Below, in pieces: positions 1 to 63,307 of a stretch of 64,000 nucleotides of DNA (position 1 is the first letter of the stretch; every line of letters begins with the position of its first letter). Both the position numbers and the translations under genes were made by a program. The stretch comes from Bolinopsis microptera (lineage: Eukaryota; Ctenophora; Tentaculata; Lobata; Bolinopsidae), in the NCBI RefSeq assembly GCF_026151205.1, contig NC_087073.1:3150501-3214500 (forward strand), read 5' to 3'. Under the pieces are notes generated by a model. The model ran no database searches. It was given only the letters and a program-made list of their open reading frames with translations, and was not told the origin of the DNA.

Positions 1-550
1 CCAGTCTCGCTATCAGACATGACAACCACCACCTCCTTCCCCGTCATAGTAGGAACTGTGGTGGAAGTGAACTGTAGACCGGGACACACTCTCACTGGAG
101 ACAATGCTATAACTTGTATCAGGGACCTTTCGTATACTATCGGTGATCTCCCAAGTTGCGCTATAGGTTTGATGATCTTTGAATGTACAACTTTTCATTT
201 TCACTGTAGTAACATAAGTACAAAGAAAGCTCAGCAGTTAAATTATCGTTTACTACAACAAATACTGTCCAGACTCCAGTCAGTCGATTATGTATATTGA
301 TGCATGTTGTCACACTTTTGTCACTCTGCTGTTTTCACAAACTTGAACTATTTAGATCACTGCACCGGGATGATGACAGAGAACCACCTCTCGACTGAAG
401 CAACATTTCCTATCCCTTACGGAACTGCTATCACACTAGCCTGTGATCCTCAGTACTTGCTGATGGGTAGTAGAGTGATAACATGTGAGAAAGGGATCGT
501 ATTCTCTCACCAGTACTCAAGACCCAAGTGTCTCGACCAAGAGGATCCAG
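1..550 (+). CDS. Sushi (CCP) domain protein, 3' part
   Basis: Two exons are visible. The first runs from the window edge to 166, where a GT donor follows; the second is 356-550, with acceptor TTTAG before it and donor GTAAGA after it. Reading phase is 1 at both joins. Each exon carries a sushi-like module: cysteines in VNCRPGH, AITC and LPSC in the first, and HCTG, LACD, VITCEKG and RPKC in the second. Sushi modules are extracellular adhesion or complement-type domains of about 60 residues with four cysteines. The start lies outside the window. A good acceptor at 823-831 (TATCTTCACAG) followed by GAC GTG TAG in phase would end the protein at 839; another reading through an acceptor near 789 also stops soon after. 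The ending is therefore uncertain. The gene converges on the myosin gene. Confidence 0.72.
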
Positions 551-1279: not shown

Positions 1280-4200
1280 CTGGGATAAATATCACGGTAA
1301 GCGAAGACAATAATCTGCAGATAGAGCACGAGAATGAATTTGATATTTTTATAACATTTTATAAATTTCCATTTTTGTACAATTTCATTCATATTGTGTA
1401 TTTTAATATCTTATATTATGTCCAGTGTAGCAACAATAATATTTTCTAATAAACTCACGAGCAGTGTTCTCCTGCTCGTCATCCTCCGACCCGAGTCCGG
1501 AACTCGGAGCCAGGGACTCGTTACTCCGGATATGGGTCGTCTTCGTCTCCTCTATCTCGAGTCTCAACTTCTCGTTATCTCGTAGTAACGTCTCGTACTT
1601 CTCCTGATAGAAGTAGATACGTGTTAGTCCGATAGATGCATGCTTAGTAAAGTCGTTCAACTGCATGACCTTAAAAATAAAGTTTAGTCATCCGCTTGAA
1701 ACTGTATTTCCAAGATAACAAACGGATTTATTAATAACATTTATTTGCTACGAACTTTGAATTCAGCGAGGCTGTTCTCATGAGTTCTCCTGTCCACCAA
1801 CTCGGTCTGGTACATATTAGCCGCCTGAGAGACACAATACATTACTTAAATATTAACAACCAGACAGATTCACTAACAATAATCATAACAATGATCAGTA
1901 CAATGATAATTGGCGGAGTAAATACAGTGTTGTCAGGTGAAGTTGGCGATTACTCGTACGTCAAACTACAACCTCTCCTCAATGCTTGTTTAGATTGCAA
2001 CAATGAAGCAAGCTCTATTATAGGCGCCATTTCACAATACTCTGATCGTAAGTCTGTTTGTTGTGTTTGACTGCTAATGTGAGCGGTTTCAACATATCCA
2101 CACAACAAGTTTACAGATATAAACGGGGATTTACACACAGAAAAACAGATAAACGTGATTAACCATGTGTTAACGACCTATTGTTATCATCACTTAGCAA
2201 TCTGCCGTTTAAAACAAAATTCAACATCTGTAACAACATAGCAAATCTTAAGTATGAACAACCACCAAATGTTGACTGATCCACAATAATAACATTAACT
2301 GTAATTCAGGGAAACAAACTAGTAAATAAAACTAAAAGTTCATATTATATGTAGTGCGGTATTGCATTGTTTACTAAGTTACTAACGTGACATAAACAAT
2401 AAAAGAGATGATTCAAATAAAACGCTACCAGTTAGGACTGCCGGTGACCTCATAATTTACTACTACTATACTTAATACGTACTACATATTTCCTAATACT
2501 TATTGAACTTTTCAACAAAAATTGAACGTCAGCGGCCCTACCCCAATCGCCTATTAAATCTAATCTCCTCCCAATTAGTATAGTATAGCGCCGGAATAAG
2601 AATAGAAAATGTGTAGAACATTTGTCGGACTGGATGTTAACTAGTATTAACTAGTATGTTAACTATACTAATGTTAAAAGACACTAATCTACATGTTGAC
2701 ACGGCATTAGGTAATCTATATATAATTAAGTACTCTAATAATAAGTACTCGAACTTGACGTTCACAAGTTGAAGCAGGTGATAGACTGTAATCGGTCTGT
2801 GTTTCGTCAACAAATTTTGTAGTTTTGTTTAAGTTTTCCGTGTTTTCAACTACAAAGTACAAAGCAAGGAAAAAGTGAGCTACACAATTAAACATACAAC
2901 GCGACAAACACTACAAACAAAAAGGAAGGTCCGAGAAAACGAGAAAGTGCACAGTAAATCGCACAGAAGTTTCGAGAAAATATAAAAACCAACCTGGGCG
3001 CTGTTTTCCCGCTCCTCCTGAAGGTGGACCTCCAAATCTTCTGTTTTAGCGGTGAGTTGAGCGTTCTGTTCCGTCAGAGAGTTAGTCTCCTCCTCCAACT
3101 TAGATACCTTGGTTCGTAACACAACTAACTCTTGCTGTGGAAGAGACGCAGGCTCAGTGAACAATGAACAGTAATCAGTGTTATTTATAGAAATTCTTTA
3201 AAGCTAAACCACTATTAAAACATTGCTTGGCGTGAAAATTTTAACTTAACTATTTTCTAGAACAGAGTTAGTGATATTGAATGTCAGTAAAGGCTGCCAC
3301 TAAAGTTATTTTCTACTGAATTAAGAATATCTGTAGCCGGCAACTGTCAAAATGCATAAATAATTTCGACTCAATAAATAAAAATAATAAAAGCTCAGGT
3401 AACAGTGTAACACATGGTCCTATGACTAAAATACACTGCCTCAACTCTCAAACGAACAAAAAGACATGAAATGTATAAAGTGACGGTGGAAGAGGTATAA
3501 TTAATCGCTGTAAGTATTAAAAGGGTCGTGACCAAGGGCAACAGCCACAGATCCCAGTAAATGCTCTTCACAATAAATTAATCGAATGACTTTTTACGGG
3601 ATTATACGCTGCTTGATGCTTACACACAGTACATGTGTGGTGAGGGGTAGGGTTTTAAAATGACACATCTCACTGTCGTGGGGCCTTGTCAGACCCATCA
3701 GGACGCAGACAGGGTTTAAACATGTTGGATCTTCTGGTAATAGCAAAAGAAAAGGTGGAGCTAGACGTTTTGTAAACCTACCTCTTTACGCTCGATATCT
3801 TTAGCTGAGTGCACCTTGATGAGAGGCTTGACCCGAGTAAACAGCTTCCACCAACCCCAGGATTGGAGCTCAGCGTGGATCAGGGCATTCCTCTGTATGA
3901 CCGATACTGCACTGTGTTTCATCTGAAATAGGGGTGTTATTATCAGAGTTATTGTGGGGTAGATGGTGTTATAGACATGAAAACAGTGGAAATGTGGAAT
4001 AACGCTTTCAACAAGTTCGAACCAGTGAAATGAAGATATAAGTGACCAATGAAATAGTGACAACACTGTATCAATACTATCAGTATCATAGCCTCCACCA
4101 TAACCACTGACTCACAATGTCCGCAGATTCAGTCTGGGTAACGAAGGGAGTTTTCCTGCGAGTTGGTATGCTAGACTTATTGGCAGAGGATGGTCCTCCC

Positions 4201-7200: not shown

Positions 7201-10200
7201 GACTAGAACATCTTACCTTCTCTATAAAGTCGGATGAATTGTAAGATTCCTGTGCTCCTTAGCTGGGATCGCACGTGCACAATCTCCATCACTGCTTCGT
7301 TTTGCCGGTGAGAGGACCGCGGGGTTACACAGTGTATAAAGTGAGGGTTTGTACGTTTCAGTGTGTCGAACACATAGTCCTGAGTAAAACGTGTTACACT
7401 GAAAAGTAGTTCGGACCCGCCATGTGTTTATTAGTAAAACAATTACTACTGTCCACGGAATTTCGTACTTCATTAGCACTAGGTCAGGAAATTCAGGGTC
7501 ATACTTTATACTTACCAACTGGAATTTGTAGTTGAGACATCTGTTCTGGGGTTTGATACTATTAGAGGACAGAAGACTGTGGCCCTTCCTAGAGTTAGCT
7601 TGTCGCATGAAGGTTGACGTGCCGTCAGCTAATGCTTTGGGAGTAGGGCTTCCTTTGGTGATAGTGCTAGCTCCTTTCCCTTGGAACAGTTGTATAACTG
7701 GCTGTCTGAAAAAAGAACGCAGGAAATTAGATTTAATTACGTGGAATACAAAATTAATAAATTTAAAGTTATGGAGGGGAATTGGACGTGTCACCCATCA
7801 CCTTGTAAACTCCGCACCAGAATTAAGTGAAATGTAATAAGTTTACTGGTAACTTGTTATTCAAAACTAAGATTTATAATAGTTGTCGCCATTCAATTCT
7901 ATTGATGATGATGAGAGAAATTGTCATGTGGCGACGCGATGTTTAATTTATCAAAAGAATTGAAGCTAAGGTGCCACACGCGCGCGCGACGCGCATACTA
8001 AAGCACTACTGCAAGCTACACTATTGAATCAGTAAGCAGACTTTGCGCCTTCCAAAAAGTAACCGAGTAGAATATGACCGATGACTTCTCACAGGCAGCT
8101 CCGCAAAAGTCAGAAATGCGGCAATCAACAGCATTAAGGAATGATACCCTAGTGTCAACAGCAACAATGCAGTAGAATCTCCGAGATTCGAGAATTTTCC
8201 AGTTTCTACAAAAATGTATTGAACTGATAAGAGGTCTAATTGAGACGTGAGTCTCGCAAACACAGCAGTCGTTAAAAAACTCGCATACTTCACACCCTTT
8301 TTAAAACCACGAACAGTAAACTGCAGTGTCTAACAGCTCCATACCTGGTGGATTCCTGCACGATAGTTTTAGCAAATCTGGCCGCAGATGTATCCCTAGC
8401 TTGCTGCAACCAGCCAGTACAGTCGTACTCAACGTTTATCAGGTGGTTGCAGTGAGACAGGACGAACTTGCTGGGACCTGACTGGTGCAGGAGTCTGTAG
8501 CCACGGCCTCCTGAAACACAAGGAAATATCTTTTAAAAGTCTACTTCTTAGTGAGGAGTAAGCCTAGTTCGTGCGTCACTACAAGAAGGGATTGACCGGT
8601 AAATGTAATATTCAGAAGACCGTACTTTAACGTTGCACTACACTAGCAGTGCATACTTTGTATCCCACACTGACAAGAGAGATATTACTGATAATATTTT
8701 AACTTTCCCAAACCAACTACCTGAGTCTAGATGTCAAACATATGACTGTACATACTATAATATTATACGTATTCACATGGTCAAGACACATAGCTAATAA
8801 CACACATGTATTGATTCTCTCTCAGTCGTCCAAGAAACATGTTTCTACAGAAAATACTGTGCCGACAGAAAAACATGCCTACTTGGCACAACCCCACAGG
8901 TCACTTATATTGAGTCAGTGATGGTCACAATTTAGGACGTCAGTTACAGTAGTCCTGAGTCACAAAGCCCAACAATCTGATCCGTAGTAAGACAGTTAAC
9001 AACTAGTACACTGCGTGCTACAGTTAAATATTTTAGTCGATTATTTCATCGCTATAATACAATCCTGATGCATGTCAATACTTTGTAAGATGCTGTGTTA
9101 ACCAGAGTGTGATCAGCACGATAAAGGACCTGGTTACGTCACTATCCTACACCTGGTTACGTCACTATCCTACACCTGGTTACGTCACTATCCTACACCT
9201 GGTTACGTCACTATCCTACACCTGGTTACGTCACTATCCTACACCTGGTTACGTCACTATCCTACACCTGGTTACGTCACTATCCTACACCTGGTTACGT
9301 CACTATCCTACACCTGGTTACGTCACTATCCTACACCTGGTTACGTCACTATCCTACACCTGGTTACGTCACTATCCTACACCTGGTTACGTCACTATCC
9401 TACACCTGGTTACGTCACTATCCTACACCTGGTTACGTCACTATCATACGCTACACCTGGTTACGTCACTATCCTACACCTGGTTACGTCCTACATCACA
9501 GTGAATATAAGCGTGAGAAGCTGTACTCAGTTACCAGAACATATTGTATTAACTTGTATCTTTTTATACATGTATTAATAATGTTGCACTCTTCTACTCG
9601 CCTAAATCTGGCAAGCACAAGTTTCACACAGATAACTCATTATAGTATTATGCTAATGACTAAATTTGTTTTACCTTAAATAATGGCAAGGTTTACCGTT
9701 TACCGATCAATTTGCCACATATTCACAATGTCATTATGTAGCCTGGTGTATCAATATTCAATATAGCAATATTCAATACTTTTAAAATAATGCTCAAATA
9801 TCATCGGGGAGGTTGTGATGATCTAAATATAATAACATGTCACAAAATACTGGGCCACTTTTAAAACATCAAAGAACCCCACAAATCCCACCTACCAGCA
9901 TCAGAGTGGTGCATGAGGACGCGCTCCAAGAACGTAATATCAGTAGCCCCCGGAAACATGGACTCTTCATCCAGTATCCAGTAGAGACCTTTAGTGTCGG
10001 TCGCTTCGTCGCTGCGTCCCTGTGAGTGCATGTCCAGGATGTCTAAAACAGGTTTGGGAGAGGCCGGCAGGTCAGTGTAGTTCATCTTTATCTCCTCCTG
10101 TGGGCGGGAAATTATTTTAAATCTATGAATTATTTAATCAATTCCATGTAAAATACTGTGAGATTCAAATATTTCTATTCAATGTGTGTCGAAAAGTCTC

Positions 10201-22200: not shown

Positions 22201-25200
22201 ATAGCCTAAATTTAATTAGGATCAACAGATCCTAAATCTAGAATTGGTCACATTCAAATTTTAAAGTTGACTGTTAAAGAATAATATTACACTTGTTTGT
22301 CTCTTGAGACAGGTGAAGAAGTTTCAATTAAAATGAGGTACCGGAACCAAAAGAAATTATAGAACAAGAACACAAAGTCAGTTTTCAAAAAACGTCACTT
22401 TCAGCGACTGAACTTGACTGCCATTCGGTACAGTTGACAGTAAGTGTCTCACCTCACAGTTGACAGTAAGTGTCTCACCTCAATTAGAGGAGGAAGAAAA
22501 TCGTTGTTCTCCGTAGCTCTGGATCCGAGCTGGAGTTCCCTCCGCAAGCTATCGTCACTGCCCTCAATCATCTGGTAGAATATGTGGTACCCTAACTCAC
22601 CCTCACCACAGTTCACTACTCTGAACCTGTCCAGTAGGCACGTCTGAAGAGAGGAGAGGGTTACAATTCATCATTATAGGTTTGACATGTGCGTGATTTA
22701 CATAAACTCTGACGTGAGCTGCTTTTTTATTTCATCTAAATATTCGACACATATTTCTGATATATATATACGGCTTTGCGATATAATACACATACACGGT
22801 CCTTTCATTGAAAGATTGGACTAATGCCAAAAACGTCAACTCATACGACGTGATGCACGTCATACTTTATTACTTTATAAGTATCCCGAATACTGATTGT
22901 ATCCTTATAGTAACACTGATGTTCTAGAACAGCCAGCCGCGGGATTAGCTCAGTGCTGGTCGCAGACAGCTAAACTTTAAAAGATATTGACAGTTTTTCA
23001 AAGAAAAGCTCTAGTAAACAGTTAGTTTAGTTAGCAGGTATAGTTGAAAACTTCAGTACGTGACTCTTGGTATTAGATTTTACGTTCGACTACGGGCACG
23101 CGAGATGATAATGCAATTTCAACTGCACTTTTTAATTTGTTCAGCTTTCATTCGAGCCGATATGTTTAACAACAAAATACAGTATACAGTACCTAAAATA
23201 ACTCCCGTTCTAGCACGCAACTAGAACCTCCTAAACTGTAAGAGACTCACAGCTCCGGAGGGAGGATATCACGAAGATATCTCGCTCCGGAGATTTGATT
23301 GTAATGTTCAGTGTAAGTTCTCAGAGCGTAAGAGGATACACCCACACACATATCAGCTCAGTGTTTACACTGTCCTATTATCACAGGTTCTGTTCTCATC
23401 AAATTATGGTAATTACGCTAAAAGTCTCCACTCATTGCTGGTGTGCTGTAGCTGCAGCTTTATCCTGTTATACCCGTTTGAGGGGTCACGAACACCAAGT
23501 GTCGGAGTGAAACGCATCAAATATTTAAATGTTTACTCTGCCAAGCCCTCTTTAAGGGGAGATACACCAAAAACGTTTTTGCTCCGAACATCGATTTTAT
23601 TTTAAATTATGGTTAAATAGACAAAAAGAATAAGATTGCACACCTTCAAAATTTTCTAAAAATATTCCCTCATCGAGAAAAAAAATATTTTTCTTTTTCG
23701 AAAATTTTTAAAATTTGGAGAAGTCTACCACTGTAATACCGATAGTTCAGCTATTTCAAAAGTTTTTTGGCTGATTTTTTTACTGAACATTACTTACACT
23801 CCGTACAAGACAACCCTTTAAAGTATTATATAATCGAACAATAAATGACCAAGTTACAGACCGAACAAGGTAAAAAAAGAAAAATTGGGATTTTTGCCTA
23901 CAACCAAAGTTGTACATTTTACCACTCGGCCAGGTCATCAGATATCGCTTCAAAAATTCTTGTGAGTGTAGCTGATGATCATATCAAACTTTTTGGAACA
24001 GGATTTCTCTCAGTTTTGAGTTTTAAGGTATGAAATGTGGCCTCAAACGAGGCATATGTTCATCCAGATACGCCTCTACAGGATATATCAAATGCCCTCC
24101 CCCTCCCCCTTGTATATTGCCAAATATATACAGAACATCAGTACCGGGGAAACCCCACAAGACCGTGTTGTAATAATAACAGCGTGTAGGAGGATTGGGG
24201 GGTACACTGAGAGACCTGCCAGAGAGAACCTACATTACCAGGACTCGGGCACATGTTATTATTATTATAGGTCGGTCAATCAGCATTATTGGGTTGTGTC
24301 ACGTAACCGATAACAATGATCCAACATTTGTAATGCTGACTGATTACCCCCCCCCCCCCCAAACATTTGTAATGCTCACTGATTACCCCCGCCCCCCCCC
24401 CCTCCCAACATTTGTAATACTCACTGATTACTCCCCCCCCCCCCCCAAACATTTGTAATGCTCACTGATTACCCCCTCCCCCCCCCTCCCAACATTTGTA
24501 ATGCTCACTGATTACCCCCCCCCCCCCCCCCCAACATTTGTAATACTCACTGATTACCCCCTCCCCCCCTCCCAACATTTGTAATACTCACTGATTACCC
24601 CCTCCCCCCCCTCCCAACATTTGTAATGCTCACTGATTACCCCCCCCCCCAACATTTGTAATACTCACTGATTACCCCCCCCCCCAACATTTGTAATACT
24701 CACTGATTACCCCCCCCCCCAAACATTTGTAATGCTCACTGATTACCCCCCAACATTAGTAATGCTCACTGATTACCCCCTCCCCCCCCCCTCCCAACAT
24801 TTGTAATGCTCACTGATTACCCCCCCCCCCAACATTTGTAATACTCACTGATTACCCCCTCCCCCCCTCCCAACATTTGTAATACTCACTGATTACCCCC
24901 TCCCCTCCCCTCCCAACATTTGTAATGCTCACTGATTACCCCCCCCAACATTTGTAATACTCACTGATTACCCCCTCCCCCCCCCCCCCCCAACATTTGT
25001 AATACTCACTGATTACCCCCTCCCCCCCCCCCAAACATTTGTAATGCTCACTGATTACCCCCCAACATTAGTAATGCTCACTGATTACCACCTCCCCCCC
25101 CCTCCCAACATTTGTAATGCTCACTGATTACCCCCCCCCCCCCCCCCCAACATTTGTAATACTCACTGATTACCCCCTCCCCCCCCAACATTTGTAATAC

Positions 25201-28200
25201 TCACTGATTACCCCCTCCCCCCCCCCCCCTCCCAACATTTGTAATGCTGACTGATTACCCCCCCCCCCCCCAACATTTGTAATACTCACTGATTACCCCC
25301 TCCCCCCCCAACATTTGTAATACTCACTGATTACCCCCTCCCCCCAACATTTGTAATACTCACTGATTACCCCCTCCCCCCCCCCCAACATTTGTAATAC
25401 TCACTGATTACCCCCCCCCAACATTTGTAATATTTACTGATTACCCCCTCCCCCCCCCCCCCCCCCTGAACATTTTTAATACTCACTGATTACTTCTGTA
25501 AGGTAAAATATACGCACACTGCACAGTAGTCACTTCTGTACGGTAAAGTTTCATAGAGCTATTCTGGTAGAACGCAGCTTACTACCCTACTATAATTAAC
25601 ACCCTGTTTCGCACACAACTACCGGACGCAAACAAAGTGTGCAGCGCCAAATCCCTAACCACACAAAGTACTCACGGTAACCATGGTAACTCACGTAAGT
25701 TTGTGCGCCCGTCAGAGTGCCCTGAGCGGTAAAGTTGAGAGTTATAAGACTGGTAAAGCGGGTACTATGTGTGTTACTCTCGCTCAGACAACAACCAAAG
25801 GAGTCCAGGAGCGCCAGGGCTGCTGTGAACTTCTCCGAGGGTAACCCGCCTTTTGGGTTACAGTGAACCTGAGAGGAGATTAGGGATGTTATATTATTAT
25901 CAGCAGCACTAATAAGAGAAGAAACCGTACAAACAGTAGAACAAACAACAGTGTGCCCTTCACAGAGTTCTCTGATATGGAGGTGATTTGTTATAGTACT
26001 ATGTTTACAGTACACTTCACAGTACACTTCACAAATAAAAAGAAGGCTCTCCTACCTGAGCGTAATAGTGGACGATGTAGTGAAGGCTCTCCTACCTGAG
26101 CGTAATAGTGGACGATGTAGTGAAGGCTCTCCTACCTGAGCGTAATAGTGGACGATGTAGTGAAGGCTCTCCTACCTGAGCGTAATAGTGGACGATGTAG
26201 TGAAGGCTCTCCTACCTGAGCGTAATAGTGGACGATGTAGTGAAGGCTCTCCTACCTGAGCGTAATAGTGGACGATGTAGTGAAGGCTCTCCTACCTGAG
26301 CGTAATAGTGGACGATGTAGTGAAGGCTCTCCTACCTGAGCGTAATAGTGGACGATGTAGTGAAGGCTCTCCTACCTGAGCGTAATAGTGGACGATGTAG
26401 TGAAGGCTCTCCTACCTGAGCGTAATAGTGGACGATGTAGTGAAGGCTCTCCTACCTGAGCGTAATAGTGGACGATGTAGTGAAGGCTCTCCTACCTGAG
26501 CGTAATAGTGGACGATGTAGTGAAGGCTCTCCTACCTGAGCGTAATAGTGGACGATGTAGTGAAGGCTCTCCTACCTGAGCGTAATAGTGGACGATGTAG
26601 TGAAGGCTCTCCTACCTGAGCGTAATAGTGGACGATGTAGTGAAGGCTCTCCTACCTGAGCGTAATAGTGGACGATGTAGTGAAGGCTCTCCTACCTGAG
26701 CGTAATAGTGGACGATGTAGTGAAGGCTCTCCTACCTGAGCGTAATAGTGGACGATGTAGTGAAGGCTCTCCTACCTGAGCGTAATAGTGGACGATGTAG
26801 TGAAGGCTCTCCTACCTGAGCGTAATAGTGGACGATGTAGTGAAGGCTCTCCTACCTGAGCGTAATAGTGGACGATGTAGTGAAGGCTCTCCTACCTGAG
26901 CGTAATAGTGGACGATGTAGTGAAGGGCGGTGGATTTGCCGCTACCAGTGGGGCCACACAACACGATACTCTGCTCAGTGTGGGTAGCCAACATCTTGAG
27001 GTGGGCCTGTTTAGCCGTCTTGTAGAGGTGGGGCGGCATCTTGTTGTAGTGCATGTTCCGGAACATTGACATCACCTGCAGAGGAGGGTATTAATACTAG
27101 TGGGGAGGTGATTAGATTTAGAGTTTGTTTTGACACGTGTCAGGATGAACCTGTAAAATGGTTGGCACGTGTTGTATAAACAGGAGTTAAATCCTGAGAC
27201 AGAAGTTTTGGAGAGAATTATTATAGATTCTAATTTCTAAGGGTCTAAAAATAGGGCGGGAAGGTGTTGAAAGTTAGCAATACGCTTCTTATTATCAGAT
27301 AAAAGGCGGATGAGAGAGAAGGGCAATAACACGTGCAAAGTACAATAACACGTGCAAAGTACACGAACTTCACGTAGTGACCAGTAATCCAGTATGAGTT
27401 ATAATAGTAATTTTATGAAGGCGTTCGGTCGTTTAATTAGGAGCTTTGAACCAATCGCTTGATCAAAAGCGTTCACCTTCTCTCTGTTTTAATATTTAGC
27501 TATTGGACTACTATATTGAATTATACCGCGGTCAGTAAGGTTCCGTTTTTACAAATAAACAGCGTACACACACACACTAACAATTACATTAGCACCAAGT
27601 TGTATGCGGTTTGCCTTACAGTTTCAACTGAGCATGTGTAGCCTTGCACAAATTGGGGAGCTTAATAATTAGTGATTACACAAACTTCTCTTTCAAGGAG
27701 TTGAAATACCGGGCGTGTAAGCAGAACTATGTGTGCTTATAGCCAGTCAGTTAGTTAGTTTGTTATCTCACACAGCACTATTACATCAACACGTTCAGAT
27801 TTTCTTTAGTTTGTTACATAATTTCAGATGGTGTAATCGGAGTTACTACGGCGTAATATATTATATTACATATTAGTATAAGCTAATAACATTTTTGCCA
27901 CACTCATGAAAAACAGCAGATTAATCAGCTGTGCAGATGAAGGTGTAAGGTTGCACGGTGGGGACACAATAAGATAATATTTCAAATAATATGCTCCAGT
28001 ATAGACAGTGTTCCAATTTGAAATGTCGCTAGATTTATCTTATTACATTGTGTTTACTCTGTTTAGCGTTTATCAGTTGAAGACTTCGATCGACTTTGAC
28101 GATCTGATATTTATAATACTAATAGATGCATAAACTGAAGAGTAAGCAGCCCTTTTTATAAAGGGCTTCTTACTCCCTAGTAAAGTATCTATATAAGCCT

Positions 28201-31899: not shown

Positions 31900-33640
31900 T
31901 AATTGGTTGATCACCTCATAAACTTGTTAGTTTATTTATTTAACAATCTTATGACCTTCTATAAAATAGTGAATCGCATAATTCCAGTTTCGCTCCCTAC
32001 TTATTATATAGTCCTATGCCGTCCAGAGGGCACCCGATACACTAGGCACAATGCTCAAATAATTGATAGGTTGGATACTTCAGGACCGTCCAAAGAATCA
32101 ACATACTTGAAGGCCAATAAAGTTCTTGATTTCGTATGCAAATTCATGAGAAGTAATCTCTTACATATAAATATGTCTAAATGCTGCTACATACATTTTC
32201 TACCTGCATTCCATTATTGAGACGTTTTAAATATTTGATTTAAGAGGTTTTTTTATACGACTGGTTCACAGTGTGAACAGATTCCAGATTTATATATTTT
32301 TTAAGTGATATTTAATAAATGATTAAAAGAACCAATTTTAAAGTTGCCATAGTAAAGCCTTTAGGTCCAAAAATATACCCATTATGCTCAGTTAAAAACA
32401 ACTCTAAATCAGTAGGCTGTCACTCTATTAATGCACCACACCGCTTCCTCCACTGCACTAAAAGTTATACAATAAATTCTACAATCCTAATTTTGTATCG
32501 TGATGGAGACCGGTGTCCATACAAAACATTTACTAGGTTGCTGTTTGGTGTGAGCAATAGCGAACAGCACGCACACCCCTTTGCCCCGTCAACCTATATC
32601 TAATCTATTTAAAGAGTGACAACCATACTACACATTGAATTAGGATTCCTTTAAATATCAAATTGATTTATTGTAAACTTGTTTACTCTGTAATAAATGG
32701 CATAAAATTGAATTTTTGTTTAACTGAATTTTTGTTTAACTGATACGAATCTGATGAAACCTACGCCAGGGTTAGACCGTATGCCAATGAATATGACAAA
32801 TCACAAGGAATATTTATAAATGTACACAAAATTGTCAAGGTTAGCAACACCAAATTTCTTGGTGTAGTAATTGATGAAAAACTTAGCTGGGGCCCACATA
32901 TAGAATATCTAAGAAAAAAAATTAGATCCACTACAGGAGCACTTAACAGGATTAAACATTCAGTTCCAGGGGAACACTACCAAAAAATATACTCTGCATT
33001 ATTGGAATCACATCTTGCTTACGGAATAAGTGTTTGGGGCTCGATAAGCTGTTCATAACTCAGAAACGTTGTATAAGAATCCTTTTTGGAGACCTAAATG
33101 CATACCTCGACAAACATGCCACTTGTGCACGAGCCAGACCTTATAGTTTATACAAAACAGAGGTTAGGAGCTGCTTTTTTTGAAAAAGAGCACACCAAGC
33201 CCATTTTTAATCGACTAAAATTGCTTACTGTTCAAAACTTGTACAAATACCACAGTATATCTGAGATATTTCGAATTATGAAATTTCGCACTCCATACTC
33301 GTTGTATTGTACTATAGACTCATCAAAACGTGATACAATCAATGTCATAATCCTCCCAAGAAAAACCAACACGTTTCTTTATATAGCCTCCAAATTGTGG
33401 AATAGCATACATAAACGGATTCTAAATGAGAATGGGGAAATCCTCACTACTTCTGTATCTTTGGTTAAATTACGCTGTAAAAGTATCATCCTGGGATCCC
33501 AATCCATCAACAATAATAACACCTGGACTTACCACAACTTTCACATCGCCCCTCACTCAGTCACAGACCAAACCAGTTCATCACTCACTCACCAAATTGC
33601 CGACCCAATATCTATTGAAGTGGCGAAAATTTTCTAGACA
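31900..33640 (+). pseudogene. Decayed LINE reverse-transcriptase fragment
   Basis: Pieces in order match the C-terminal half of a LINE reverse transcriptase: ANKVLDFVCKFMRSNLLHIN (around 32110-32170), KFLGVVIDEKLSWGPHIEYL (around 32850), IYSALLESHLAYGISVWG (around 33030), then LLTVQNLYKYH and FLYIASKLWNSIHKR (33215-33420). Frameshifts and a stop near 33056 break it, and about 500 bp of unrelated sequence (32220-32740) interrupts it. The clade looks CR1/jockey-like, but this is not certain. Confidence 0.8.
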
Positions 33641-48566: not shown

Positions 48567-49919
48567 TCAAACATACCCCATTCGGTATATCCCCTCTATA
48601 CGACCACCTCTATTGACAGTCATCAGCCTAGTATCCAGTCTATCATATATAGGCTCAGCTTCATCTCTATTTCCCAAAGTGGCCCCATTGTTTCCCGACA
48701 CACCAGGTGGATATGCTACTGAGTCAAGTAACTGCAGTAAATCATCCAATGATTGGTAAAGAAGAAGTGTTTCATGATTCTCGCAATCTGGGGGGAGTGG
48801 GGGCATCTCTCCTTGAAAAACTGGGCTTGTAGCCTGTTCTAGTGTTCTAGCTTCCTCTTGTTCTAGCTTCCTTTTGTTTGTCAGCCACAGTACCACGCAG
48901 GTGGAGATTACTAGAGTAACTAAAACTGCGCATACCACAAAGAATATGATGTAAGCGATGTGTTCTTGAGAGTTTCTGGTCTTGTTCTCTCCAACACCCT
49001 CTTCAGTGCTAGCACTGTATGGGAGGTTAAACGCTGGTATCATTATATTTCGTTTTGTTGTTTTGTTTCTTCCTGTCGTGACCTTGCAAGTGTAGAATAT
49101 TGATCTGTTGGTCTCGGTGATGTTTGTTAGCGTGGACGATTGATGAAGCTTGAGTCTTTCTCGCCGGTTTTCATTTTGCTCCTCTGTGCCACTTACAAGC
49201 ACTTGATTGTCCTTAAACCACAAGAGTTCAGCTATTTCATCAATACTTCCACCCTGACAAGTGAGGTTTGTACCTTGTCGTTTGAGAGAAACCGCAGGTT
49301 CAACACAAGGGCAGAGCCGGATTGTCAAGTCACCCTCACAGTGTTCCGTCTTCAGAGATCTTATGACAGTATTGTTGTTCACTGGTAGTCCTCTCACCAT
49401 TCTCTGAGCCAGGTTACGTGTTGCAGTGTTCAACTTTTTAGCATAATTCAATGTCTCTTCTCTAATGATTCCATTATTGTCCTGATCATATATCAATACT
49501 TTGAGAAACGTTTCATTTGTCTTCGGTATGAGTTGAGTTTCAAATTGTTCTGTGTCTTTGAAGTTACCTTTAATTCTGAAATCATCCGTTATGTCCACTG
49601 GAAATTCCGCTCCATTTACAACACCGGTAAGTAAGCTGATAATGCCAATAGAATTCTGCGATATTAGCCATCTTATTTTCAAGTTGGTGGCACCATTCCA
49701 TGTTTTGGCTGCAAATGTAACACTGCAATTGGATGTGGAGCCTCTGAAGCTGACTAGCCTGGTGTAAGTCTGGTTCGAGTCTGTAACAGGATCAAAATAC
49801 TGGTACTGGTCAGCTAGATCTAGGTTTGTTACGTTGTAGCAATTGTCAATGTTGCAAAGATCTGTGAATCCTTCTGAGAGAATCCCAACAATCGCCAGAA
49901 AACTAACCAAGGTTCTCAT
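48567..49919 (-). CDS. Intronless Ig-domain type I receptor, member 1
   Basis: A single uninterrupted frame of 450 codons from the ATG at 49919. This start is chosen because MRTLVSF aligns with the MRFLCC start of the two paralogues; an in-frame ATG at 49934 is possible. Parts: signal peptide (1-20); CNIDNCYNVT motif heading a module of about 180 residues of unknown fold; Ig-like domain (about 205-290) with Cys221, Trp234 and FYTC278; membrane span 321-346; cytoplasmic tail of about 100 residues. The tail has YQSL, YDRLDTRLMTVNRGG (Tyr425) and YRMGYV. Many N-x-S/T sites mark the ectodomain as extracellular. YxxL motifs suggest phosphotyrosine signalling through SH2 proteins, by analogy. It is far diverged from members 2 and 3. 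No named family was recognised. It lies head to head with the THOC1-like gene. Confidence 0.85.
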   Translation of the reverse strand: MRTLVSFLAIVGILSEGFTDLCNIDNCYNVTNLDLADQYQYFDPVTDSNQTYTRLVSFRGSTSNCSVTFAAKTWNGATNLKIRWLISQNSIGIISLLTGVVNGAEFPVDITDDFRIKGNFKDTEQFETQLIPKTNETFLKVLIYDQDNNGIIREETLNYAKKLNTATRNLAQRMVRGLPVNNNTVIRSLKTEHCEGDLTIRLCPCVEPAVSLKRQGTNLTCQGGSIDEIAELLWFKDNQVLVSGTEEQNENRRERLKLHQSSTLTNITETNRSIFYTCKVTTGRNKTTKRNIMIPAFNLPYSASTEEGVGENKTRNSQEHIAYIIFFVVCAVLVTLVISTCVVLWLTNKRKLEQEEARTLEQATSPVFQGEMPPLPPDCENHETLLLYQSLDDLLQLLDSVAYPPGVSGNNGATLGNRDEAEPIYDRLDTRLMTVNRGGRIEGIYRMGYV

Positions 49920-50965
49920 ATAATTATAGAACATTACATAATTCAAAGTTCATCTTTTCTATCCTGGAGTTCGTTCGAGAGCCATTTTGTAGGTTTGCTT
50001 CGTATCTCAAGTGTTGTGAATTAATCTGTAAATCGTTCCTTCATTTTGAACTGGGTAGTTGTAATCTCATGAGCTATTAATTAATCTGATACATATTATA
50101 TTTAATTAATTCTTACTGACAAGCTCGAATATATAAATAATAGGTCATAACTTTGAAGAGAACCAATAGAAAAGGTATCTTGTAAAATCTGCTAGAAGGC
50201 CATGAAAAACAATGCAAACACTAGACACGTTCTCTGACAAGTAACTTTGAGAGCAGCTCTACACAAAGAGTAATGTTCAAAAAGGAGTAGTGCACTAAAA
50301 GAAGTGCACGTATTACATGACATCGTGTGCATTGAATCTCATTAACATTCAAGACTAAAAAGGACTAAGGATAATGCATTGACAACGGCCTAGTCATCAT
50401 CATATCACAAATTCTAAGAGGTACTGATCTTCAAGTAGTCTCTAAAAGTCTGAACTACACTCCTCTAATCGTTCCTATGTTCTGTGCAGGTGTACTTACT
50501 GCTATTCTATTCCATGTGAAAAGATGAGAGTTACTGGAAGAAAGAAGCTTAACATTACTTATTGTCTTTGGTGCTCTCTATCGTATGAATAATTCAGGTT
50601 TCTTCTTGAAGCTCCTCTAATCGACGAGATTCTTTCCTAGAATGGCGGGAGCCGCTTCTTTATCTGGAACCGTGAGCGTATTCATGAAAAACAAAATTAC
50701 CAACTACATTTTGTGAACTTTTAAGATACGGCAACGTCGATTAAATAAATAAATATTGGCCACTTGGACTGAGCATAAGTAAAGTGTACTCATACTGTTC
50801 TCGACTCTAATTGTGCAGCAGATACATCGGGAATCGGCCAAATTTTTAATTTGTTTAATAATCAGTTTTGTCAACAAAGTAAAAGTTCTGAAAGGATTTA
50901 TCCAAATTTTTCTAACAAAGATAATTTATTTGTTAAATAAAAGTTCAAGTTTTCTAACCTGCACA
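49920..50965. promoter_or_regulatory. Divergent intergenic region (receptor 1 / THOC1-like)
   Basis: About 1 kb between two gene starts pointing away from each other; both promoters should lie here. On the minus strand a TATTTATATATT stretch (about 50129-50140), some 210 bases before the receptor ATG, could be a TATA box, which fits the TATA boxes of the paralogues. Confidence 0.45.
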
Positions 50966-53289: not shown

Positions 53290-54837
53290 CTAAAGCTTGA
53301 GAGTCTGCATCTCGTAGAGTCCCTCCTCCGGATCAGGAGAGAAGTTGTGTCCCATGGTGTTGGAGGAGTCAGGAACTGGAGGAGCACTGCTAGTAGGAGG
53401 CCTAATAACCCTGTTAGGTGGTGCCCCCATGGTGCTGGGTCCTGCCTCACCAGGTCTGTAGGTACCCCAGCGGTCCGGATCCCCTCTGTTGACTGTCATC
53501 CGATTAGGATCCAGTTTGTTGTATATGTTATCTTCATCATCACGTTGCTTGCCTGGCCTTGCCACTTGTGCGTAAACAGGCACGTTATCATCTTCATACG
53601 ACCCGGGTTCTCTCGAATCCAACGCATTTAGTAACCCCTCCAAATCATGGTAGTTACTCTCTATTTCTAGCTCAGGCTCACTGTCCGGCAGAACCACTGG
53701 AATTATTGGCTGCTCTTCACTGGAGACATCTGAAGTTGGCTCAACTGCATCATTCACTAAAGGTTTAGGATCCGCGTTACAATATCGTCTGACCAACGTT
53801 AGAATGCCAACACAGATCAAGGTAATGACCGCCAATCCTCCTACAATCACAAGGATTATGATCGTTAGGAAAGCTTGTGAACCGTCTTCTTTATCTTTAA
53901 CGGCATCTTCTTTACCATCAGTTGGGTTCTCTTCTTGAGCAAGTGCGGGTATCCTTTTAGTGCGTGTAGCATTAATTTCACTGTCTGATGTTAATGATAC
54001 TGTGCACGTGTAATTACCTGATTCTTTTCTAGAGGTCACGTTGTGTAACATCGACATTTTCATCAAATCTCCAATAGAAGATGTCTCTGTTCTGTTATCC
54101 TGGACAGGGTTACCATTCTCTGTCCACGTTATAGCCATATTCTCATTCCCTTCTATACTCACTGCACTGCATTTCAGAACACTAGTTTCATTGTTCCATT
54201 CTAGTTCTGTTATCACTGGTTCAGAACATGGACACAATGACAACGTAAGTTTATCTCCGCACCCTGTAGCTGATAAGTTTCTGGTTATTTCCTCTGCAAG
54301 CAATTTGCTCCCTTTTCCTTGTAATAACCTTTTCGATGGCTCCACAAAGTGCGTAAGGAACTCGTCTTTGGATTGCAACTTCACATAATTAGACTCCCTT
54401 TTCTCATAATTGTCCGTATAATAATAAGCAAACACGGTATCTTCCAAACGAAACTGTATTCCTATAGTCATCACTGCATCATATGATGATATTAGGTCAG
54501 TTATTGTCGAATTGACCAGAGTTGATGGTTTGACATCCTGGTGAGGAGTATGTGTCAGCAGCAATTTCGCCTGCATTTTCACAAATTCCATCCGGAAATT
54601 GGTGGCATCGTTTTCTCTATTTGAGGTGCACTTCAATGAAAGACTGCAATTTTCTTCTACGAGTCCATTCAGAACCACCGTGTTGACCGTTTTAAGATCA
54701 AAACTTTCTATTGCACCCAGTTCAAAACCTACCGATCCAAGTTCACTCGATGAAATGTTATAACAGTTCTTGAGATTGCAAAAGGCAAAAATGTTAACTG
54801 GAGCTGCCAGCAGAACAACACAACAAAGAAATCTCAT
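53290..54837 (-). CDS. Intronless Ig-domain type I receptor, member 2
   Basis: A single frame of 515 codons from the ATG at 54837 (the frame is open further upstream but without ATG). Signal peptide (MRFLCC... to about 18), CNLKNCYNIS motif, an N-terminal module of about 185 residues, Ig-like domain with Cys223, Trp238 and GNYTC278, membrane span 322-349, and a tail of about 165 residues. Tail tyrosines lie in YHDL, VYAQV (422), IYNKLDPNRMTVNRG (439), TYRPG and the terminal LYEMQTL (508). YAQV and YNKL are 13 residues apart, close to an ITAM-like pair but not canonical. A proline-rich stretch (PPTSSAPPVP) precedes the last tyrosine. Nearly identical to member 3 outside one patch (157-164). 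The function, signalling or adhesion receptor, is inferred. Confidence 0.88.
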   Translation of the reverse strand: MRFLCCVVLLAAPVNIFAFCNLKNCYNISSSELGSVGFELGAIESFDLKTVNTVVLNGLVEENCSLSLKCTSNRENDATNFRMEFVKMQAKLLLTHTPHQDVKPSTLVNSTITDLISSYDAVMTIGIQFRLEDTVFAYYYTDNYEKRESNYVKLQSKDEFLTHFVEPSKRLLQGKGSKLLAEEITRNLSATGCGDKLTLSLCPCSEPVITELEWNNETSVLKCSAVSIEGNENMAITWTENGNPVQDNRTETSSIGDLMKMSMLHNVTSRKESGNYTCTVSLTSDSEINATRTKRIPALAQEENPTDGKEDAVKDKEDGSQAFLTIIILVIVGGLAVITLICVGILTLVRRYCNADPKPLVNDAVEPTSDVSSEEQPIIPVVLPDSEPELEIESNYHDLEGLLNALDSREPGSYEDDNVPVYAQVARPGKQRDDEDNIYNKLDPNRMTVNRGDPDRWGTYRPGEAGPSTMGAPPNRVIRPPTSSAPPVPDSSNTMGHNFSPDPEEGLYEMQTLKL

Positions 54838-55018
54838 TGCTAGTGAACAGCGAAGTGCTAAATTTATCACCTAAATGTCGTGATCAAGTCGACTGCCAAA
54901 AATGTTATTTTAATTCTTGTAGCTGTTTTTAGAGTCAGATGTTGACTTTCTTCTCATTACAACATCTTCCCATAGTGTATCTGAATTAAATGTATTATTG
55001 TGTCATCATTATGTAATG

Positions 55019-61059: not shown

Positions 61060-61685
61060 GATGTGAAAATAATAGGGGAAAAAAAGAAGATTTTGAGAAG
61101 ATAATTTGGTTTTAAAGTGTAATTGAAGGTGTAAAAAAGTGTCATTTAGTGTACCCCTTTTACTACACTTTTTAATATTAATTATCGAATATTAATTTTC
61201 AAATATTAATTCAAATTCAAATATTAATTCAAATTCAAATATTAATTTTCAAATAACAGTAATACAAAAGTGCTAATGCAAATGAACTTAATTATTTCTC
61301 CTAGTTTCTGTATTTTTTGAATACTAAAAAAACTAGCATCAACTTTGCTTCATTCAAAATGTGCAAAAATTTCTCCTCAAAATTTCTTCTATCTATTCTG
61401 TGAAGCATCACGCTTGAAAAATAACCCTGCAGAATCAGCATCTGACCGTTTTGTCTTTTTTCCCCAATTTTATCACAACAGTGACAATAAAGCAATAATT
61501 CGAGATATTGCAGCCATAATTTGTTGAGACTAGTAAAGCTAGCTGGCACCCAGGTATCTTCTGTGAGCTTGAGAGTCTGCATCTCGTAGAGTCCCTCCTC
61601 CGGATCAGGAGAGAAGTTGTGTCCCATGGTGTTGGAGGAGTCAGGAACTGGAGGAGCACTGCTAGTAGGAGGCCTAATAACCCTG

Positions 61686-63116
61686 TTAGGTGGTGCCCCC
61701 ATGCCCCATGGTGCTGGGTCCTGCCTCACCAGGTCTGTAGGTACCCCAGCGGTCCGGATCTTCTCTGTTGACTGTCATCCGATTAGGATCCAGTTTGTTG
61801 TATATGTTGTCCTTGTCATCAAGTTGCTTGCCTGACCGTGTCACTTGTGCGTAAACAGGCACGTTATCATCTTCATAACACCCGGGTTCTCTCGAATCCA
61901 CCGCATTTAGTAACCCCTCCAAATCATGGTAGTTACTCTCGATTTCTAGCTCAGGCTCACTGTCTGGCAGAACCACTGGAATTATTGGCTGCTCTTCACT
62001 GGAGACATCTGAAGTTGGCTCAACTGCATCATTCACTAAAGGTTTAGGATCCCCGTTACAATATCGTCTGACCAACGTTAGAATGCCAACACAGATCGAG
62101 GTAATGACCGCCAATCCTCCTACAATTACAAGGATTATGATCGTTAGGAAAGCTTGTGAACCGTCTTCTTTATCTTTAACGGCATCTTCCTTACCATCAG
62201 TTGGGTTCTCTTCTGTAGCTAGTGCGGGTATCCTTTTAGTGCGTGTAACATTAATTTCACTGTTTGATGTTAATGATACTGTGCACGTGTAATTACCTGA
62301 TTCTTTTCTAGAGGTCACGTTGTGTAACATCGACGTTTTCATCAAATCTCCAATAGAAGATGTGTCTGTTCTGTTATCCTGGACAGGGTTACCATTCTCT
62401 GTCCACGTTATAGCCATATTCTCATTCTCTTCTATACTCACTGCACTGCAATTCAGAACACTAGTTTCATTGTTCCATTCTAGTTCTGTTATCACTGGTT
62501 CAGAACATGGACACAATGACAACGTAAGTTTATCTCCGCACCCTGTAGCTGATAATTCTCTGGTTATTTCCTCTGCAAGCAATTTGCTCCCTTTTCCTTC
62601 TAACAACCTTTTCGATGGCTCCACATATATCCGACGGAAATCGTCGTCGGATTGCAACTTCACATAATAAGACTCCCTTTTCTCATAGTTATCCGTATAA
62701 TAATAAGCAAACACGGTATCTTCCAAACGAAACTGTATTCCTATAGTCATCACTGCATCATATGATGATATTAGGTCTGTGATTGTTGAATTGACCAGAG
62801 TTGATGGTTTGACATCCTGGTGAGGAGTATGTGTCAGCAGCAATTTCGCCTGCATTTTCACAAATTCCATCCGGAAATTGGTGACATCGTTTTTTCTATT
62901 TGAGGTGCACTTCAATGAAAGACTGCAATTTTCTTCTACGAGTCCATTTAGAACCAACGTGTTGACCGTTTTAAGATCAAAACTCTCTATTGCACCCAGT
63001 TCAAAACCATCCGATCCAAGTTCACTGGATGAAATGTTATAACAGTTCTTGAGATTGCAAAAGGCAAAAATGTTAACTGGAGCTGCCAGCAGATCAACAC
63101 AACAAAGAAATCTCAT
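61686..63116 (-). CDS. Intronless Ig-domain type I receptor, member 3 (C-terminally frameshifted)
   Basis: A single frame of 476 codons from the ATG at 63116, with the same layout as member 2: signal peptide, CNLKNCYNIS motif, Ig-like domain ending GNYTC, membrane span 322-349, and tail with VYAQV and IYNKLDPNRMTVNR. A 7-bp tandem duplication CCCCATG (61697-61703 and 61704-61710) shifts the frame, so the protein ends STMGHGGTT and loses about 45 residues, including the proline-rich part and the last LYEMQTL motif. That part is still intact in another frame, but its old stop codon is altered too. The N-terminal residues up to the shift remain open, so the gene may still work as a shorter-tailed receptor. 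Confidence 0.85.
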   Translation of the reverse strand: MRFLCCVDLLAAPVNIFAFCNLKNCYNISSSELGSDGFELGAIESFDLKTVNTLVLNGLVEENCSLSLKCTSNRKNDVTNFRMEFVKMQAKLLLTHTPHQDVKPSTLVNSTITDLISSYDAVMTIGIQFRLEDTVFAYYYTDNYEKRESYYVKLQSDDDFRRIYVEPSKRLLEGKGSKLLAEEITRELSATGCGDKLTLSLCPCSEPVITELEWNNETSVLNCSAVSIEENENMAITWTENGNPVQDNRTDTSSIGDLMKTSMLHNVTSRKESGNYTCTVSLTSNSEINVTRTKRIPALATEENPTDGKEDAVKDKEDGSQAFLTIIILVIVGGLAVITSICVGILTLVRRYCNGDPKPLVNDAVEPTSDVSSEEQPIIPVVLPDSEPELEIESNYHDLEGLLNAVDSREPGCYEDDNVPVYAQVTRSGKQLDDKDNIYNKLDPNRMTVNREDPDRWGTYRPGEAGPSTMGHGGTT

Positions 63117-63307
63117 TGCTAGTGAACAGCGAACAGCGAAGTGCTAAATCACCTAAATGTCGTGATCCATTTGAGTGCCAAAAGTGTTATTTTAATCCTT
63201 GTAGCTGTTTTTAGAGTACGATTTTGACTTTCTTCTCATTACAGCATCTTCCCATAGTGTATACTGTATCTGAATTAAATGTAGCATTGTGTCATCATTA
63301 TGTAATG

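Follow-up and report, generated by a model that had tools for sequence, protein, structure and literature searches.

Minisatellites spanning exon-intron boundaries in the ctenophore Bolinopsis microptera: 22 tandem splice donors in a myosin gene and related arrays elsewhere in the genome

The window analyzed here, a stretch of 64,000 nucleotides from Bolinopsis microptera, carries a myosin gene on its minus strand, and three of its exons are listed in Table 1 together with the other features described below. When these exons are joined through the first donor of the P-loop exon they form a single open reading frame, which matches Myosin_head positions 54-213 in Pfam with 108.8 bits (cut-off 33.3), in agreement with an earlier note on this DNA that had called the gene a myosin. 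With human MYO18A as the query, tblastn hit a series of exons that follow one another in the expected order along the minus strand of the gene. The gene may therefore provisionally be called myosin-XVIII-like, a class name that comes from MYO18A as the one myosin class used as query. Duplicated donors were seen at two of the 12 motor, neck and tail exons placed in the window, where the 12 include one exon at 3161 without a significant match. One is the P-loop exon and the other is the third exon in Table 1, whose donor ATTGAG/GTGAGACACTTACTGTCAACTGT (the slash marks the splice junction here and below) is followed by a second copy in a 26 bp x2 repeat.

The P-loop exon, read on the minus strand from 27075 to 26896, ends in VMSMFRNMHYNKMPPHLYKTAKQAHLKMLATHTEQSIVLCGPTGSGKSTALHYIVHYYAQ/GTAGGA and contains the first unit of a minisatellite that continues into the intron. 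TRF run on the window returned 26042-26926 with a period of 40, 22.1 copies and a match of 100%, and a direct count on the minus strand gave 22 exact units and 22 occurrences of CAGGTAGGA, plus a 5-bp overhang CCTTC. The splice signal CAG/GTAGGA is present in 22/22 units. It is clear from these counts that the earlier note was right in describing a minisatellite whose unit joins the end of an exon to its donor, with 22 identical donors in tandem, and its view that the array is recent or homogenized fits the 22 perfect copies. Its division of the unit into 25 exonic and 15 intronic bases is valid, yet the register is arbitrary, a division into 26 exonic and 14 intronic bases being equivalent. 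The tract has CCTTC both at its exonic start and at its intronic finish, and because these bases are common to both ends the repeated tract holds 31 exonic bases of the P-loop exon. Used together as a query, array and exon found a single matching place in the genome (264,652,675 bases, or 264.7 Mb, in 232 contigs). Counted from donor 22 instead of donor 1, the intron would be 187 nt long.

Table 1 Exons, intron and splice-site arrays of the myosin gene in the window, and two array loci elsewhere in the genome.
Feature	Position	Strand	Description
Myosin P-loop exon (GPTGSGKST)	26896..27075	-	acceptor CTCTGCAG/GTG; first donor GCTCAG/GTAGGA
Donor-spanning minisatellite	26042..26926	-	22 perfect 40-bp units + 5 bp; CAG/GTAGGA in each
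Intron, donor 1 to next acceptor	25869..26895	-	1027 nt; array = 854 nt
Next myosin exon (EKFTAALALLDSFG...)	25695..25868	-	acceptor CTCTCAG/GTT; donor CAAACTTAC/GTGAGT
Third myosin exon (TCLLDRFRV...PPLIE)	22479..22643	-	donor ATTGAG/GTGAGA
Second duplicated donor, same myosin gene	22430..22482	-	26 bp x2 across GAG/GTGAGACAC
L009, acceptor-spanning array	contig C8 near 7268823-7269127		37 bp x10; unit ends TTTCAG/GT, contains GTAAGT
L087/L088, GNL2/NOG2 exon	contig C1 ~1104498-1111165		8 tandem acceptors before, ~164 tandem donor units after

Of the 22 donors, donor 1 alone leads into the next exon in frame. Use of donor 2 or donor 3 would add 40 or 80 nt and shift the frame, and donors 4-22 take in a stop at +82..84, 27 codons past donor 1, which agrees with the earlier claims that the first donor alone leaves the protein intact and that the later ones meet a stop about 84 bases on. 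Since the 22 donors are identical, strength cannot choose between them, and position or context must. Of the note's suggestions, the evidence favors the one in which the first donor wins every time: judging from the integrity of the protein, donor 1 is probably the one used for productive mRNA.

Two other arrays in the window, both with donor-like words, were considered as boundary arrays and set aside. One, at 9128-9490 (23-bp x15.6, with CCAG/GTGTAGG on the minus strand), is internal to a myosin intron and lies apart from the exon ends that were found. The other is a long array at 24321-25460, in which units of ~41 bp alternate with C-rich spacers and the minus strand carries GTGAGTATT words; it is located in the intron that follows the second myosin exon and touches no exon end. 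The window also holds long open frames on the minus strand at 48567-49949, 53290-54870 and 61301-63143, which by eye look like membrane proteins bearing tyrosine motifs and immunoglobulin-like domains; the second and third frames are close paralogues. Open frames at 32744-33637 resemble, again by eye, a decayed retroelement reverse transcriptase.

Arrays elsewhere in the genome were located by triples of exact donor words. Compared with the reversed words, forward triples numbered 381 vs 0 for CAGGTAAGT, 105 vs 7 for CAGGTGAGT, 828 vs 26 for CAGGTAAG, 1188 vs 2 for AAGGTAAG and 458 vs 19 for CAGGTAGG. The word AAGCTAAG, in which the GT is destroyed, scores high too (408 vs 5), and the claim that tandem arrays are enriched in donor words was therefore dropped. 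The listed places of AAGCTAAG come from two arrays, which tells us that raw triple counts follow a few huge arrays, and all AAGGTAAG places among the matches listed fall in the GNL2 array described below. As a single word, CAGGTAAGT occurs 2463 times genome-wide vs 1212 for its reverse. The acceptor word TTTTCAGG gave 183 vs 86, a weaker contrast than that of the donor words.

Twenty loci from the donor-word search were fetched and judged by eye from their flanks and open frames, and eight of them were run against Pfam. At two of the 20, a family match above cut-off crosses the donor junction. The homeobox gene L012 has a 35 bp x21.5 donor array between ..QIQVQ and VWFQNRR.., and splicing from the first donor restores the homeodomain over model positions 1-57 (81.3 bits); the array makes up 719 nt of the 771-nt intron. 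In the FAF1-like gene L023 a 41 bp x15 donor array accounts for 575 nt of an intron of 801 nt, and the FAF1 match across the junction reaches 111.9 bits. One further locus of the 20, L009, has its array at the acceptor side, directly 5' of exons matching TAF2 (53.9 bits, cut-off 27).

At 9/20 loci (L005, L006, L007, L011, L013, L014, L019, L020 and L022; eight independent ones, L019 and L020 being paralogues) an exon-like open frame was seen by eye to reach the first donor. Those sent to Pfam, which were all nine except L006, L013, L014 and L020, gave no family above cut-off, the scores below it including WD40 for L007 (17.6 bits) and NCD3G for L022 (18.9 bits). No coding exon was recognized by eye at 8/20 loci (L008, L010, L015, L016, L017, L018, L021 and L024). 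Little weight can be put on an open frame by itself as a sign of an exon, because L021 and L024 have such frames too (42 and 51 codons). The paralogues L019 and L020 are identical at 216/217 positions of the exon stretch and at 290/300 positions of the intron after the array, while their arrays measure 446 and 481 bp, about one unit apart. Thus the array has outlasted the gene duplication, changing by about a whole unit.

The strongest case surrounds an exon of GNL2/NOG2. Its donor array, found via the word AAGGTAAG, consists of 38-bp units over 6236 bp, or ~164 units by span; both ends of the array were fetched and its middle is known from the listed word places. When the flanking exons are joined, an unbroken alignment to human GNL2 runs across the junction DMMCK/GVV with 85.7 bits. 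In Pfam GNL2 gave only MMR_HSR1 at 17.4 bits, under the cut-off of 21.9, and in NCBIfam it had no match. The eight acceptor copies that precede the exon have units of 41-43 bp, and the full exon is opened by the last acceptor only, the other 7/8 meeting a stop after 16-30 codons. An intact GNL2 product would thus need the last acceptor and the first donor, and these two are the copies in contact with the real exon. The donor is not kept in every unit, as 58 AAGGTAAGG words were counted in the 62.3 units at the far end of the array (L088).

The acceptor word TTTTCAGG gave 18 arrays among the matches listed, of which 17 were fetched and one low-complexity array was left out. Five of the 17 (L071, L074, L077, L079 and L083) adjoin, by eye, a coding-looking open frame. 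None of these five frames scored above cut-off in Pfam; L077 reached 25.4 bits for WD40 (cut-off 27), and the other four gave no family. A 26-bp acceptor array is present in two copies that are related to each other, one at L074 (contig C3 near 15876906) and one at L075 (contig C4 near 3080041). The copy at L074 adjoins a frame reading RTNCVDCLDRTNTAQF, without a Pfam match, which we take to be Sac-phosphatase-like, and the copy at L075 looks decayed.

Boundary arrays thus occur at both the donor side (myosin, L012, L023, GNL2) and the acceptor side (L009, GNL2), and they form a recurrent class in the Bolinopsis genome, beyond the single case described in the earlier note. The class is sporadic, since 70 exons of other myosin genes (70 of 73 myosin-head matches, the remaining three lying inside the window), with repeats near their ends judged by eye, showed no clear array of exon end plus donor and one possible array, L030.

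Apart from the arrays, 32 places in the genome match the ligand-binding family of glutamate receptors. Many of these matches sit in one long open frame each, so that the family would seem to be large and poor in introns. The ligand-binding stretch of L067 shares 69/87 identities with the solved ML032222a receptor (143 bits; 4zdm 92, next 55), and that of L069 gave 120, 83 and 56 bits in the same order. A whole-length query with the receptor L064 returned other glutamate receptors for all of the best 60 chains, and one with L069 returned kainate receptors first and then short ML032222a chains (256 residues). ML032222a comes from Mnemiopsis leidyi, and 4zdm is a protein of Pleurobrachia bachei. 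The ligand-binding stretches therefore mark the genome as very probably that of a ctenophore, perhaps a lobate one, while the whole-length queries gave no pointer to ctenophores.

The conservation of the downstream donors was examined in 11 donor arrays by setting the variation in columns -3 to +6 against that found when this set of columns is placed at random round the unit; this column test, and an earlier one on another set, left out the paralogue L020 and the invariant myosin array. In this test, which has low power and is biased towards conserved donors by the picking of arrays through exact donor words, 12/99 donor columns were polymorphic vs 15.4 expected (P 0.22). For GT alone the numbers were 2/22 vs 3.4 (P 0.30) and for AGGTRA 6/66 vs 10.3 (P 0.095), the latter leaning towards conservation. 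The other set of 11 arrays, which lacked L088 and included the acceptor array L009 instead, gave 10/99 vs 14.0 (P 0.16), and 5/66 vs 9.3 (P 0.083) for AGGTRA. The 37 copies counted in L022 comprised 24 with GTGAG, 8 with GTTAG and 5 in which the GT is lost. The downstream donors are thus without detectable conservation. Nor are the unit lengths tuned to the reading frame, as only 2/13 donor units (27 and 39 bp) and 0/5 homology-supported ones (40, 26, 35, 41 and 38 bp) are divisible by 3.

The array is probably a minisatellite of the exon-intron boundary (a "mirage") in a myosin-XVIII-like gene, tolerated since the copy that touches the exon makes productive mRNA. A short segment comprising the exon end, the donor and the intron start would have been duplicated, perhaps by slippage between flanking CCTTC repeats, which are a likely starting point because the tract begins and ends with CCTTC; the segment would then have grown to 22 copies. 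For productive mRNA the spliceosome would pick the first donor beside the real exon, and the 21 others would leave as intron. Because the outermost copy would be the one used, with the last copy used in the mirror image at acceptors, boundary duplications of any length would be nearly neutral, and the arrays could expand and contract like other minisatellites and might come to fill most of an intron. Splicing work on duplicated donors often finds that, of two strong copies, the intron-proximal one wins. For the myosin gene this would mean mRNA that is mostly non-productive, and it counts against the first-donor reading; the gene might also have low expression and simply put up with the array. 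As a driver of expansion, DNA hairpins were considered and rejected, since four unit pairs, myosin included, do not fold notably better than shuffles (z 0.63, 0.06, -1.47 and 1.11).

Other explanations give the array a function. The earlier note had offered a donor decoy or a switch to non-productive mRNA, and in a regulated form of the latter the downstream donors would be used in some tissues, the frameshifted or stop-containing mRNA would be destroyed, and array length would set myosin output. That donors 2-22 are all non-productive and that the 22 identical donors each have 7/9 matches to CAGGTAAGT would suit such a switch, but a like arrangement is found in unrelated genes with unrelated units, the donor columns vary about as often as the others, 5/37 copies of L022 have no GT, and few donor units are multiples of 3, so neither the decoy nor the switch finds support and we regard the regulated switch as quite improbable. 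It appears very unlikely, too, that the donors serve as a reservoir that recruits U1 snRNP and so blocks early polyadenylation or reinforces exon definition. The ~164 units of the GNL2 array, in sense orientation and still with 58 AAGGTAAGG words in the far-end 62.3 units, could be read in this way, but the acceptor-side arrays of L009 and GNL2 would be left unexplained, and here again the lack of detectable conservation in the donor columns speaks against a function.

An assembly artefact, in which a few true copies were expanded by the assembler, would account for the identity of all 22 units, and one amphioxus mirage was aberrantly assembled in a draft genome, according to the accessible part of PMC3087553. 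Against this, other arrays of the genome have internal variants, two paralogues (L019/L020) have kept the same array, and a single place was found for the myosin array, all of which make an artefact very unlikely. A more far-reaching reading, which we consider rather unlikely, is that a process linked to transcription or splicing favors tandem amplification at splice junctions, and that a strict outermost-copy rule holds even with ~164 donor units. Such a rule, with the first donor and the last acceptor used, would be expected if exon definition decides before donors pair across the intron.

Returning to the tolerated boundary minisatellite, its closest relatives are the mirages of lancelets, which are described in the accessible parts of PMC3087553 for Adh3 and the globins BflGb6 and BflGb9, and in those of PMC3902484 for troponin C and, as imperfect repeats, PGBD5. 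Both sources, as far as accessible, report that mirages duplicate splice sites without disturbing splicing, with units of 10-72 bp in Adh3, 150-160 bp in the globins and 60 and 108 bp in PGBD5, and PMC3087553 gives 6 and 3 units for two BflGb6 haplotypes. Like these, the Bolinopsis arrays span the exon-intron boundary, at 5' and 3' boundaries, in units that carry splice signals, and by their sequence they have the structural features of mirages. They differ from the lancelet cases, as known from these parts of the papers, in belonging to a ctenophore, in reaching ~164 units, in their unit lengths of 26-43 bp (homology-supported arrays) and in flanking one exon on both sides.

In the human gene IFI6 (6-16, G1P3) several donors are provided by a minisatellite located where an exon ends (Turri et al. 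1995, via the accessible part of PMC4526556); two downstream repeat units serve as donors there, giving three mRNA species and different isoforms (same source). In the myosin array 0/21 downstream donors are in frame, each breaking the frame or adding a stop. The downstream donors of IFI6, in contrast, reportedly give alternative proteins in frame. For human segmental duplications, the accessible text of PMC2812944 describes 27 cases in which introns were modified by tandem repeats lying on exon-intron boundaries. These resemble the present arrays in having minisatellite units (~30 bp on average), copy number that varies at boundaries and altered introns, but they lie between recent paralogues, average ~4 repeats and are seen by the authors in connection with alternative splicing and with new introns. 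In the Rogers model, as cited in the accessible part of PMC3087553, introns are gained by tandem duplication of AG/GT sites; here, too, a tandem duplication bearing AG/GT turns exon into intron sequence, with the difference that an existing intron is lengthened. An earthworm metallothionein minisatellite is intronic (PMC12783039, accessible part). The accessible portions of the open-licence literature on amphioxus mirages and on boundary or ctenophore repeats, including PMC8527503 on the Hormiphora genome, mention no ctenophore mirage or boundary minisatellite.

A literature search on competing identical splice sites gave nothing direct. The choice between identical splice sites is usually studied with engineered duplications. 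In the arrays described here the number of donor units ranges from 2 to ~164, with as many as 8 acceptors, and the genes concerned (myosin, homeobox, FAF1-like and GNL2) are conserved. They thus form a natural, graded set of tests of splice-site choice, in which the positional rule could be measured directly. This kind of array has already been named in amphioxus, and its occurrence in a ctenophore adds to a known class; what surprises is how many near-identical sites there are, that a single exon has arrays on either side, and that the host is a ctenophore, from a phylum distant from lancelets and humans, in both of which boundary minisatellites had been described before. For annotation pipelines the arrays mean that dozens of equal donors can trail one exon. 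For the genome itself they show a route by which introns are lengthened, and they might also create introns.
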